Shown here: positions 2,927 through 34,621 of the stretch, in pieces
How positions within the stretch are numbered: the first letter of the stretch is position 1
How the letters are laid out: the number at the start of each line of letters is the position of its first letter
IMG/VR virus record: IMGVR_UViG_3300043331_001189
Span: 1-43,684 of that record
Reading direction: 5' to 3' (one strand)
DNA: 43,684 nucleotides
Source: a virus
Made by a program: the position numbers and the translations under genes
Notes under the pieces: generated by a model
The model's database searches: none
Seen by the model: only the letters and a program-made list of their open reading frames with translations
What the model was told of the DNA's origin: nothing

Positions 2927-2948
2927 TCCGTGCAGTGAGGGCAACACC

Positions 2949-3203
2949 ATGACCAAGCCCGCGAACGAGATCTGGGCGCTTCCCGCGGACCGGCTGGCCA
3001 GGATGGCCTGCCGAGTCACCGCGCCCCTCGCCACGTCGCTGACCACGGTGCGCCTGGCCACCGGTCGGTGCGTCAGCCCCGACCGGGACGCGGCCAAGGC
3101 TTGGCTGCGCGGCGCGGCACGCGAGGCGGGGGTCAGCCCCGCTGACGGGCGCCTCACTCGGGCGCTCCACTGGGTCGACCTCGTCTCCCTGGTGGCACTG
3201 TGA
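2949..3203 (+). CDS. Small orphan protein
   Basis: 84 residues starting MTKPANEIWALPADRL. The start follows GCAGTGAGGGCAACACC, sharing GTGAGGGCA with the leaders at 2648 and 3475. It is helical and Ala/Arg-rich. Its stop overlaps the GTG of the next gene, indicating translational coupling. Function unknown. Confidence 0.65.
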   Translation: MTKPANEIWALPADRLARMACRVTAPLATSLTTVRLATGRCVSPDRDAAKAWLRGAAREAGVSPADGRLTRALHWVDLVSLVAL

Positions 3204-3391
3204 GGCGCTTCGCGGTCACGGTCGCGGAGCTAGAGGTCATCGCTCAGGCGCTGGCGCTGTGGGAGGCCACGGCCCCGGATGACGAGCAGTCAGAGGGCGA
3301 CGTGTCCTACGCTGACGCGACGCGCCTCCGCGTCGCTTGCGAGACCGCCGCCGCCAAGGTGGCGATTTTGCGCGCAAGGCGCCGCAAGTAG
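3200..3391 (+). CDS. Small helical protein
   Basis: 63 residues from a GTG overlapping the previous stop (GTGA). It looks like a helical hairpin with a strongly basic C-terminus (RARRRK). An 8-bp hairpin follows the stop. Function unknown. Confidence 0.6.
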   Translation: MRRFAVTVAELEVIAQALALWEATAPDDEQSEGDVSYADATRLRVACETAAAKVAILRARRRK

Positions 3392-3403
3392 ACCGGGCCA
3401 CTC

Positions 3404-18014: not shown

Positions 18015-18246
18015 GCTCCCTCCCGTACTGCGCAATCTTCGCCCGCACGTCGTCAAGGCGCGCGTGCGCCTGCTGGAGCGCCTTCGTCGCGTCGGCCAGG
18101 AGCCAGCGCGAGAACTTCTCCGTCACGGCACGGAGGTGGGCGCGCGAAGCGGCGTTCACCTCCTCGAGCGCTGCGGCCTCCTCCCGACAGAGGGCGGTCC
18201 ACTGCTCGCGGCGGGCAAGCGCGGGATGGATGAGCGGGGCCGTCAT
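18007..18246 (-). CDS. Small coiled-coil protein
   Basis: 79 residues starting MTAPLIHPALARREQW; almost wholly helical with heptad-like Ala/Leu/Glu spacing. ATGA overlap with the repeat-bearing gene before it. The longer open frame upstream is only the antisense of the Ala repeat tract. Function unknown. Confidence 0.65.
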   Translation of the reverse strand: MTAPLIHPALARREQWTALCREEAAALEEVNAASRAHLRAVTEKFSRWLLADATKALQQAHARLDDVRAKIAQYGREHE

Positions 18247-18830
18247 GGCAGGCCCGCCGCCACAACGGTGAAGGGGACGCGCTCGCGCACCATATCCGCC
18301 AACCGCTTCTGGCAAGAGGTACGGGCGGCGTCGGCGGCGTCGGCGGCGGCGTAGGCGGCGGCGGCGTCGGCGTCGGCGGCGTAGGCGGCGGCGGCGTCGG
18401 CGGCGGCGTAGGCGGCGTCGGCGGCGGCGGCGTCGGCGGCGGCGTAGGCGGCGGCGGCGGCGGCGTCGGCGGCGTAGGCGGCGTAGGCGGCGTAGGCGGC
18501 GGCGTAGGAGGACTCCCTGGCGAAGCCACACCAGAACTCAGCCGTCGCGGCGGTCTCCGCATCCACCACGCGGGGCAGCTCACGCAACAGGCGCGCCCAT
18601 TCTGGCGAGCCGACCGTCTCCATGGCGTCTGCGCAGAACAGCCGGGCCAGGTCCGCGCTCACCCAGCGGTCCGCGACGCCGAGCGCGCGCAACAGCCAGA
18701 TCATCCAGTCGGCGCGCGGCGCATCCGCCCACGCTTGCTCCGCCGTCCGGTCGCCACACCACTCGCGGGCCTCCCGGCACGCCCCCAGCCTCATCAACAG
18801 TTGCGCAAACGTCGTGCTCAATGCGGTCAT
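18243..18830 (-). CDS. Protein with Ala-Tyr-Ala repeat tail
   Basis: 195 residues. The first 105 form a compact domain (GACREAREWCGD, AWADAPRADWMIWLLRALG) that recalls small proteins annotated as putative immunity proteins in bacteria and phages. Residues 109-169 are a low-complexity tract of AYAAYAA, ADAAAA and similar units, followed by a short basic-hydrophobic end. Tyr falls every 3-10 residues, so the tract may form a long amphipathic helix. It is encoded by a G+C trinucleotide repeat. The overlap of starts and stops on both sides supports expression. Confidence 0.7.
   Translation of the reverse strand: MTALSTTFAQLLMRLGACREAREWCGDRTAEQAWADAPRADWMIWLLRALGVADRWVSADLARLFCADAMETVGSPEWARLLRELPRVVDAETAATAEFWCGFARESSYAAAYAAYAAYAADAAAAAAYAAADAAAADAAYAAADAAAAYAADADAAAAYAAADAADAARTSCQKRLADMVRERVPFTVVAAGLP
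18324..18506 (-). repeat. Imperfect trinucleotide repeat coding the Ala/Tyr/Asp tract
   Basis: About 183 bases built mainly of GCC/GCT-type Ala codons punctuated by TAC (Tyr) and GAC (Asp), read on the plus strand as ggcggcgtc and ggcggcgta units. Length changes in whole codons would keep the frame. Confidence 0.85.
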
Positions 18831-32542: not shown

Positions 32543-32859
32543 GCCCCGTGGTGTACCTCAGGTACCCCGGGGGTGTACACGGACTCGGAGGCCAGCCCCT
32601 GTGTCCCGGAGTCGGATTCGTCGCCGTAGGGGACGGAGCAGTAGACCTCGCAGCCCCCGTTGAAGCAGAGCGGCCGGCGCTGGACCCAATGCTCCTCCTC
32701 GCGGGTGCCGTCCGGGAGGTAGCCCGCGTCCCACTCCCAGACGCCGCACAGTGGGGCCTGGGTGGTGTCAAGGATGTAGGCGCAGTGGTGATCCCAGATG
32801 CACTCCTGGCCGGGGCAGGCAAGGAGGAGGGTGGCGACGAGGGCTGCTGGGACGTTCAT
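32458..32859 (-). CDS. Putative Cys-rich lipoprotein
   Basis: 133 residues. MNVPAALVATLLLAC is a lipoprotein signal (lipobox LLAC), followed by nine Cys in the next 95 residues (CIWDHHC, CFNGGCEVYC). The last 28 codons overlap the nozzle-like gene in another frame, where codon usage is poor, so the functional end may lie earlier or the overlap may be real. It is the first gene of the tail segment after the plus-strand cassette. Confidence 0.55.
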   Translation of the reverse strand: MNVPAALVATLLLACPGQECIWDHHCAYILDTTQAPLCGVWEWDAGYLPDGTREEEHWVQRRPLCFNGGCEVYCSVPYGDESDSGTQGLASESVYTPGVPEVHHGACPTASPPPFSSSPSSPAATTSRTGCRS

Positions 32860-32993
32860 GTTGCGCACTGGTGGCCTCGGGTGTATGGTGCGTACGTTCC
32901 GCTGACGGGCAGGTCGGCGGTGTTCCTCTCCATGTTGCACCGGAGGCCCCGCCGCCGGTTGCCTGCCCGCGACTGGTTGGCGGGGTAGTTTCC
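32860..32993. promoter_or_regulatory. Divergent region between tail segment and plus-strand cassette
   Basis: 134 bases with no gene. A leftward promoter for the tail genes and a rightward one for 32994 should lie here, since a terminator at 33678-33705 lies upstream of the tail segment. I could not place convincing boxes on either strand. Confidence 0.4.
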
Positions 32994-33290
32994 ATGGCGA
33001 AGAAGAAGGCGGCGGCCCCGAAGGTCGCGTTCGAAGTTGGCAAGACGTACCTGCTTCGCGGCGTCACGATGTACCAGATCGGCACAGTGGTGGGCATCAC
33101 GCCGACGGAGCTTCTCCTGTCCCCGGCCGCCTGGGTGGCGGACACGGGGCGGTTCAATGCCGCCCTCAAGTCGGGCGTGCTGGCGGAGGTGGAGCCCTAC
33201 CCCACGGAGACGCTCCCGGCCGGCGTCAACCGCGGCGCACTCTCGGACTGGTGCACCTGGCCGCACGGGGTGCCCACCGAGGTGAAGTGA
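32994..33290 (+). CDS. Small conserved-type phage protein on opposite strand
   Basis: 98 residues: MAKKKAAAPKVAFEVGKTYL, then RGVTMYQIGTVVGI, LSPAAWVADTGRFN and EVEPYPTETLP. I recognise this pattern from small phage proteins of unknown role near structural genes. It is on the plus strand while all flanking genes are minus. The last base of its stop is the first of the next ATG. Confidence 0.75.
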   Translation: MAKKKAAAPKVAFEVGKTYLLRGVTMYQIGTVVGITPTELLLSPAAWVADTGRFNAALKSGVLAEVEPYPTETLPAGVNRGALSDWCTWPHGVPTEVK

Positions 33291-33469
33291 TGGCTGCCGT
33301 CGCAGCCATCCTGCGCGCAGGGTTCGAGTGGTCGGGGTCGGGGTCGCGGTCGTGGTCGGGGTCGCGGTCGTGGTCGGGGTCGCGGTCGTGGTCGCGGTCG
33401 GGGTCGTGGTCGCGGTCGGGGTCGTGGTCGCGGTCGTGGTCGCGGTCGTGGTCGGGAGGTGACTCATGA
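33290..33469 (+). CDS. Ser-[Gly/Arg/Trp] repeat protein, copy 1
   Basis: 59 residues. A short head (MAAVAAILRAGFEW) is followed by alternating Ser and one of Gly, Arg or Trp to the end (SGSGSRSWSGSRSW...). Each Ser-X pair is one hexanucleotide, NGGTCG, with N only G, C or T. The start is coupled to the preceding gene (TGATG) and the stop to the next (ATGA), which supports this frame although all six are open. No family known; possibly a cationic, aromatic membrane- or nucleic-acid-binding peptide. Confidence 0.6.
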   Translation: MAAVAAILRAGFEWSGSGSRSWSGSRSWSGSRSWSRSGSWSRSGSWSRSWSRSWSGGDS

Positions 33470-33654
33470 CGGCAGCCATCCTGCGCGCAGGGTTCGAGTG
33501 GTCGGGGTCGGGGTCGCGGTCGCGGTCGTGGTCGGGGTCGCGGTCGTGGTCGCGGTCGTGGTCGCGGTCGCGGTCGTGGTCGCGGTCGTGGTCGCGGTCG
33601 GGGTCGTGGTCGCGGTCGTGGTCGTGGTCGCGGTCGTGGTCGCGGTCGTGGTCG
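33329..33654 (+). repeat. Hexanucleotide NGGTCG tandem repeat, two arrays
   Basis: Arrays at 33329-33454 and 33499-33654, each over 20 units, where the first base of each hexamer varies among G, C and T but not A. The plus strand has GG or GGGG every few bases, so it may form G-quadruplexes. The head regions between them are duplicated as well. Confidence 0.95.
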
Positions 33655-33663
33655 GGAGGCTGA
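33466..33663 (+). CDS. Ser-[Gly/Arg/Trp] repeat protein, copy 2
   Basis: 65 residues; the ATG overlaps the stop of copy 1 and follows GGAGGTGAC. Head MTAAILRAGFEW is the same as in copy 1, and the Ser-X tail differs in order and length. A 51-base stretch (33472-33522) is identical to 33302-33352, showing recent duplication. Function unknown. Confidence 0.6.
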   Translation: MTAAILRAGFEWSGSGSRSRSWSGSRSWSRSWSRSRSWSRSWSRSGSWSRSWSWSRSWSRSWSGG

Positions 33664-33677
33664 TCACTGCCACCAAT

Positions 33678-33705
33678 GAGCCCGGCGGAAGCGCTCGCCG
33701 GGCTC
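33678..33705. terminator. Strong hairpin between repeat cassette and adaptor gene
   Basis: GAGCCCGGCG (33678-33687) pairs perfectly with CGCCGGGCTC (33696-33705) with an 8-base loop. It follows the plus-strand cassette and overlaps the last codon region of the leftward adaptor gene, so it may stop both transcripts. Confidence 0.7.
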
Positions 33706-34621
33706 ACCAGAACGCCTCGTTGGCCAGATGATCCGGCTCATCCTGGTCCCTATCCGCCAGGCCGCCGTAGAGTTCCTCTTCCAGCGGCCGGAGCTCCGCG
33801 GCCAGCTTCTTCCACAACGAACCCTCTGGCGGCACCAGCGTCATGGCCACCCGATGTGCCAGGACGACGTGCGCCTCTGGGGGCATCTGGAGCACGGGGG
33901 CCTCTTCCGCGAGGCACACGTAGTCGCCCACCACCAGGGCCGAACGGGCGGCGGCAGTCGCGTTGAATTGGATGGCGGACCCAACGATGGCCGCTGGCGT
34001 CGAGTCGTCCACCAGCGAGTCGAACGGCGGCCTGGCCTGGATGATGTCGCAGGGCGTCGACGTGGTGATGCTCAGAGAGGCGGGGGTGACGTTGAGGGTT
34101 AGGGATAGGATGGTGGGATTCACCGCGTCCTGAATGACGGTGATGACTCCTGCCGTCGCGGGCGCCACCAGTTTGTTCGGCCGCCGCGGGTAGGTGAGGC
34201 GGTACGAGTACGAGGCGGAGTCCGGCGTCGGGTAGAACACCAGCGAGTTGTTCCGCCAGAGGTAGGCCTTCGGGATGCCGCGCGTGGTGGGGTTGAGCCC
34301 CGCCAAATCCGTCTCGACCCACTTCTCCAGGTGTCCGACTGCCCCGTCCGGCGCCACCAGTTGCACCAGGGCGATGGAGCCGTGGAGCGCCCGTGTCACC
34401 ACTCGGTACGAGGCGGTGCCCGCGGTGAAGGCGGTGTCCTTCTGAGTGTTGAAAAAGCCGGACTTTTTCGCGCGGATGCGCTTGGCGATGGTGAGCGCCT
34501 CGGAGTTGGCGAGGCGCAGGAGGTCTGCGTCCTGCCAGCCCGGGGCGTAGGCGGACGACGCGGGCGCCAGGGCGCGCGCGCGGATTTCGGCCGCCAGATC
34601 CGCCGAGTCGTACCGCGCCAG
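33704..34621 (-). CDS. Head-tail adaptor-like protein, probable non-standard start
   Basis: The frame is open and codes plausibly from LARYDSADLAAEIRARALA through WQDADLLRLANSEALTIAKR and TAGTASYRVVTRALHG; this is the pattern of podovirus adaptors. No ATG, GTG or TTG occurs before the GTG at 34402, which would remove 73 codons of this region. A CTG at 34621, seven bases after the previous stop region and behind AAGGCGGG, is the best start and gives 305 residues. The end is acidic. Alternative: start at 34402 with 232 residues. Confidence 0.65.
   Translation of the reverse strand: MARYDSADLAAEIRARALAPASSAYAPGWQDADLLRLANSEALTIAKRIRAKKSGFFNTQKDTAFTAGTASYRVVTRALHGSIALVQLVAPDGAVGHLEKWVETDLAGLNPTTRGIPKAYLWRNNSLVFYPTPDSASYSYRLTYPRRPNKLVAPATAGVITVIQDAVNPTILSLTLNVTPASLSITTSTPCDIIQARPPFDSLVDDSTPAAIVGSAIQFNATAAARSALVVGDYVCLAEEAPVLQMPPEAHVVLAHRVAMTLVPPEGSLWKKLAAELRPLEEELYGGLADRDQDEPDHLANEAFW

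Follow-up and report, generated by a model that had tools for sequence, protein, structure and literature searches.

What is made from two short, overlapping genes whose tails are little else than one repeated hexanucleotide, and is it their protein or their DNA that is conserved? The question is raised by a virus contig record of 43,684 bases with a GC content of 71%, which is referred to here as the window. On its plus strand the translations give gene A (P0001, 32994..33290, 98 aa), which has about 90 homologues in a family that we designate A-I, followed by gene B1 (P0002, 33290..33469, 59 aa) and gene B2 (P0003, 33466..33663, 65 aa). B1 and B2 each consist of a head of 12-14 residues, MAAVAAILRAGFEW in B1, where it falls in a head family, and MTAAILRAGFEW in B2, and of a tail (Ser-X)n in which X is Trp, Arg or Gly. 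A census of the hexamers gives 20 perfect TCGNGG units in B1 (33332..33451; N is C in 7, T in 7 and G in 6) and 25 TCGNGG units in B2 (33502..33651; C 11, T 10, G 4), so that the variable base is C, T or G and never A, the other five bases being invariant, and the Ser-X array has the top TRF score among all repeats in the window. A block of 51 bases, made up of the end of the head and the first hexamers, occurs in two identical copies (33302..33352 and 33472..33522), the stop of gene A overlaps the start of B1 as TGATG (33288-33292), the stop of B1 overlaps the start of B2 as ATGA (33466-33469), and a Shine-Dalgarno-like GGGAGG (33454..33459) lies within the end of B1, 6 nt 5' of the B2 start. 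An earlier, sequence-only reading had described B1 and B2 as a coupled pair with a shared head and a Ser-X tail, and the positions, hexamer runs, overlaps and block duplication that it gave all prove correct, but it overlooked the upstream partner, gene A, which is coupled to B1.

The three genes form a short plus-strand island inside a structural region on the minus strand, where a terminase and a major head protein are among the neighbouring genes. A perfect hairpin of 12 bp (33677..33706, plus strand; RNA fold -29 kcal/mol, z -2.7) lies 3' of B2, between the converging cassette and the minus-strand structural genes, and is a possible, candidate terminator lacking a T run, which a scan for consensus terminators did not call. 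A target of a diversity-generating retroelement would show adenine-directed changes and go with a template copy and a reverse transcriptase; the variable letters of the two arrays are not centred on A. A second low-complexity gene of the window (18243-18830, minus strand) has a Shine-Dalgarno-like site and a reading frame of 195 aa, with an Ala/Tyr/Asp-rich tail whose repeats, of the GGCGGCGTC type, are encoded by an array at 18324-18508.

The pair formed by gene A and a Ser-X gene is present in hundreds of uncultured phages from many environments. A first scan with B2 led to two loci, L010 and L011, that both have gene A beside Ser-X genes, and a search with gene A led to GenBank MW202573, in which MNAAIIRAGLDA(SW..)n comes after A and overlaps it just as in the window. 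Another sequence initially returned as a relative, L009, is not a member, its frame and strand being different. Profile scans with gene A gave 80 + 79 IMG/VR loci and 9 loci in GTDB genomes, of which one, in an Isosphaeraceae contig of 649 kb (L100), is probably a prophage. In nearly all gene A loci a period-6 array begins directly after gene A, 52 of 68 automatically called B genes start at position -4 or -1 with respect to the stop of A, and tandem B paralogues number up to six per locus, L010 having several B copies with a single A. About a quarter of the gene A loci have no detected array.

The link is also seen from the side of the arrays, which were scanned for with the plain DNA patterns (TCGBGG)8 and (AGCDGG)8 that are blind to gene A and returned many contigs. 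Some of these arrays carry another head (MRxxKQKYR) and follow another gene, A-II, which hhalign identifies as a homologue of A-I (probability 96.8, E 2e-10), and a scan with A-II added 80 further loci, mostly with a Ser-X array downstream of it. Among distinct non-truncated loci, a Ser-X array is found within 170 nt downstream of A-I in 82 of 115 and of A-II in 44 of 58. When the count was limited to arrays that combine W, R and G and are preceded by 700 nt or more, a profile search found A-I or A-II at most 1.5 kb away for 60 of the 65 mixed arrays with TCG and for 16 of the 17 with AGC (76 of 82 when pooled). Pure SRSRSR or SWSWSW hits of (AGCNGG)n are simple repeats without gene A and were excluded. 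Apart from gene A, a comparison of neighbours across the loci revealed nothing conserved.

Neither A nor B has a significant profile match in Pfam, PHROGs or NCBIfam, the best match in the family libraries being phrog_7000 (function unknown) with one gene A relative at an E of 0.0026. In phage and plasmid collections only MW202573 (A-I) and MW202825 (A-II) were found, both of which are metagenomic, and in MW202825 (L535) A-II and a Ser-X array lie at about 2940-3400, the annotation of the record having no feature where A-II matches. A partial coverage of the literature produced no paper on the module, which apparently is widespread and undescribed. It is probably also under-counted, since many contigs, in IMG/VR among others L018, L020, L027, L033, L047, L051, L064 and L068, end inside an array, which indicates that the arrays break short-read assemblies.

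Three observations lead us to assign the gene to the Ser-X frame, namely the counts of start codons, the shifts of the Ser codon and the protein-like constraint on the head. An ATG between gene A and the array is found in the Ser-X frame in 82% (A-I) and 77% (A-II) of loci, as opposed to 16% and 2% in the +1 frame and 12% and 16% in the +2 frame. An array keeps to one Ser codon, but which one varies between phages (TCG in 186, AGC in 64, TCT in 56, TCA in 16, AGT in 4 and TCC in 1 of 327 arrays), and the hexamer accordingly reads TCGNGG, TCTNGG, TCANGG, AGCNGG or AGTNGG depending on the phage, with Ser-X encoded throughout. As TCN and AGY are more than one synonymous step apart, the other frames of both strands change while Ser-X is kept, and the +1 frame thus gives GR, GL, GH/GQ, GA or GV according to the Ser codon. 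The head, furthermore, has the consensus MNAAILRTGFD among relatives, and its variability is highest at third codon positions (1.47 bits, against 1.09 and 0.93 at the others). The Ser-X protein frame is in other words the conserved one as far as comparison of sequences can tell, and the head search, together with the start codon counts, bears out the earlier proposal of a maintained protein family. That the conserved frame might be the one on the minus strand, as had also been considered, is not borne out, for that frame changes completely with the Ser codon; a minus-strand ORF of 283 aa (32856-33707) and the other minus frames, which are fully altered between phages in the same manner, are regarded as incidental.

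Rapid change, likewise proposed from the window alone, is apparent when close relatives are compared. In L065 and L090 the gene A sequences are 97.9% identical in nucleotides and the heads are the same, yet the tails differ throughout; in L109 and L113 (99.6%) a part of the tail is reordered, and entire hexamers distinguish L023 from L025. In such near-identical phages the changes in length and order leave the frame intact. Several contigs end inside arrays, and lengths from short reads must therefore be treated with caution. The tail is, to judge by such pairs, rebuilt fast and its composition rule kept. Heads resembling that of B (MSAAVLRAGYD, MSAAVIKVGY and MSAATLRTGYE) also occur with lost or degenerate tails, at L086 3240-, L153 12891-13300 and L044/L056, and these genes may show the outcome of array decay.

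The composition rule itself is simple. Over 327 arrays X is W in a fraction of 0.295, R in 0.306 and G in 0.310, with a spread of 1.2, 1.5 and 2.2 times the binomial variance, respectively, and over 125 arrays the mix depends weakly on a genomic GC content ranging from 28 to 71% (r 0.23, 0.15 and -0.24). The order of X is near random with some segmental duplication. Within arrays synonymous variation is nearly absent: the entropy is 0.16 bits for the Ser codon versus 1.48 bits for W/R/G (327 arrays) and is higher for the latter in 326 of the 327, one Arg codon only is used in 215 of 285 arrays, and Gly is encoded by GGG in 2694 of 2827 instances. The observation that A is never used at the variable position therefore holds in the window but not elsewhere, since AGG is the sole Arg codon in the arrays of some other phages, and the limit to three letters, which is real in the window, means that W, R and G are each given by a single codon rather than that A is avoided. 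Overall the tail contains about 15% Trp and 15% Arg, and B is short with a net positive charge. An AlphaFold2 prediction for B2 shows no stable fold (pLDDT 51, pTM 0.15), with a low-confidence helix at residues 2-13 and coil after the head, and B is accordingly predicted to be disordered.

Whether a mix this even needs selection was approached with a crude simulation of block exchange and mutation in which only Ser and {W,R,G} were required. Exchange with purifying selection yielded the observed values in 0 of 112 runs without extra mutation at position X1 and, under the same requirement, in 2 of 42 runs with it. Some runs match when the W/R/G mix is bounded, and when a bounded mix is combined with mutation concentrated at X1, 10 of 14 do. 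Keeping the mix without concentrating mutation at X1 left the Ser codons more varied than observed, and this residual excess implies that the account lacks one element, either a restriction on the Ser codon or mutation biased towards X1. Within the limits of such a model, the notion that the near-equal W/R/G mix is maintained by selection is supported.

The constant partner of these tails is predicted to be a Sm/LSm-like β-barrel. The AlphaFold2 model of gene A as a single chain (from 89 sequences; pLDDT 93, pTM 0.81) is a five-stranded bent barrel of the Sm fold, and the best solved structures in a Foldseek search are mostly Sm/LSm chains, at E values above 0.001. After structural realignment the best 50 listed are all Sm/LSm chains with Z up to 8.7, although a Z near 8 in this tool can reflect a common arrangement, and gene A superposes on them at about 2 Å over 64-71 residues (1.8 Å over 64 residues for 1i8f). 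The Pfam LSM model does not match gene A, and an hhalign comparison with LSm and Hfq profiles, in which the expected positions of archaeal LSm are aligned, is not significant; this comparison was a weak one, some LSm loci and 2 of 3 Hfq loci being inverted and not readable through. As sequence profiles do not confirm the relation, the term Sm-like is used here as a statement about fold only. Gene A furthermore differs from Sm, LSm and Hfq in having an extra helix at 54-60 and a conserved ADTGRF motif. Two of its fold neighbours in BFVD are labelled DUF6948, an identity that we rejected, gene A having no match to a Pfam, PHROGs or NCBIfam model and no mention of it having been found in a paper.

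On comparative grounds, then, A and B constitute a two-part module of linked genes with fast arrays and a conserved protein grammar. For its function we favour, at a probability of roughly 0.4, a module with a selected mix in which A is an RNA- or nucleic-acid-binding protein of Sm fold and B provides a sticker-spacer tail that forms ribonucleoprotein (RNP) clusters. A would be a small protein of Sm fold with affinity for RNA or another nucleic acid, B would dock through its short conserved head, and the disordered tail would be a multivalent chain with Trp and Arg as stickers and Ser and Gly as spacers. Such a tail could gather A and nucleic acid into RNP clusters during infection, and the clusters might protect, sequester or process RNA. 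A fuller version, in which the phage has a two-part RNP-condensing system of a Sm-fold protein and a hyper-evolving chain with W:R:G at about 1:1:1, the order being scrambled by array exchange and perhaps by mutational bias at one base of the hexamer, is put forward tentatively and seems somewhat unlikely in all its parts.

Low-complexity tails or partner proteins are likewise part of how LSm14, Edc3 and some Sm proteins function. Gene B resembles the SR/RS, RGG and FG-like domains of RNP condensates in its predicted disorder and in having Arg and aromatic residues spaced by Ser and Gly, but it alternates strictly, uses Trp rather than Tyr or Phe and has near-equal W, R and G, and no common descent is implied. 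A further parallel is offered by the Borg elements, in which in-frame tandem repeats build disordered regions that are under strong selection and evolve fast, the repeats being near-perfect units of varied sequence in many unrelated proteins, five Borg Sm proteins among them (PMC9879509). As in the Borg tandem-repeat (aaTR) proteins, the unit of gene B (6 nt) is divisible by three, the frame is kept in close relatives and the repeat region is predicted to be disordered. Unlike them, gene B has imperfect units with X almost random among W, R and G, and follows one fixed alternating grammar with one variable base, and whereas the Borg repeats belong to the Sm protein and occupy its N-terminus, the phage B is a separate gene coupled to the Sm-like A.

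Several other explanations must be weighed against the clustering of A and nucleic acid. Peptides rich in Trp and Arg are a known class of antimicrobials, and B, being short, net positive and about 15% each in Trp and Arg, could be a membrane-active peptide that contributes to killing or lysis of the host, A being its coupled regulator or antidote, a notion to which the weak AF2 helix in the head and the tight coupling of A and B would also be suited. The tail is nevertheless much more polar than peptides of that class, half of its residues (50%) being Ser and a third of X being Gly. Neither a signal sequence nor a transmembrane segment can be seen in the head, the partner is predicted to be folded, no lysis gene is a consistent neighbour since neighbours are unconserved, and the multiple copies of B with one A in L010 would be odd for a toxin. 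We therefore regard a membrane-active B as rather unlikely. Strict alternation of two residues would likewise fit a two-faced β-strand with Ser on one face and W/R/G on the other, and B could be an adhesive or structural silk-like protein on virions or the host surface, the more so as the cassette of the window sits within a structural region. This seems more improbable still, as the cassette lies on the strand opposite to the structural genes and has varying neighbours elsewhere, no signal peptide is apparent, AF2 predicts no β-structure in B, and the coupling to a Sm-fold-like protein would be left unexplained.

Explanations that dispense with a selected Ser-X protein fare worse. The arrays could be slippage repeats tolerated neutrally where a small, dispensable gene ends, which would account for quickly changing copy number and order and for the contigs that end in arrays, yet a W:R:G ratio near 1:1:1 with near-binomial variance over 327 arrays is not what neutral exchange with purifying selection reproduces in simulation, and the link between A and the array recurs in two divergent A families, making this a very improbable account. 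That the array acts as DNA or RNA, as binding sites or as a recombination or packaging signal, with an incidental frame, is suggested by the near-invariance of the hexamers within an array and their very regular spacing, but is strongly disfavoured, to the point of being scarcely tenable, by the change of hexamer between phages while Ser-X stays, by an ATG and a coupling specific to the Ser-X frame and by heads conserved as protein. Hardly any more credible is the +1 frame, (Gly-Arg)n in the window and (Gly-Leu)n or others elsewhere, as the real or a second product made by an internal start or frameshift. The variable base is its wobble position and it runs in frame into the next gene in L012 and L011, but its peptide is unconserved, an ATG is as rare as noted above and the window has no start for it. 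The two loci may be described in their own right: the +1 frame of the array is in frame with a downstream zinc-finger protein gene in L012 (5279-5732) and with downstream HNH-like sequence in L011 (553-1140), so that a run of Gly-Arg or Gly-Leu could become fused to the downstream gene through an internal start or a shift of frame.

Other alternating genes are occasionally found in the vicinity. In about six lineages (Gly-X)n genes with X being Asp, Tyr, Ser or Asn, likewise made of hexamer arrays, occur near gene A (L011 1-90; L024 1-71; L039 77-160 and 897-; L061 4401-; L143 9668-), and it is suggestive that these acidic, aromatic chains could be a counterpart of the basic Ser-X tails. A small ORF among the Ser-X genes of L010 (8981-9223) ends in IEAEIEAEIEAEIEAD, which is also an alternating tail encoded by repeats.

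The module was spotted in raw sequence and is conserved in phages of many environments, and none of the family libraries searched has a name for it. Its hundreds of independent tails, which vary in order, length and codons, amount to a natural experiment on disordered proteins, and as the alternation and the even mix of Trp, Arg and Gly are constant across them, rules for such chains could be read from nature. If gene A is indeed a nucleic-acid-binding Sm-like protein, a phage-encoded RNP system would furthermore join the known ways in which phages handle RNA.
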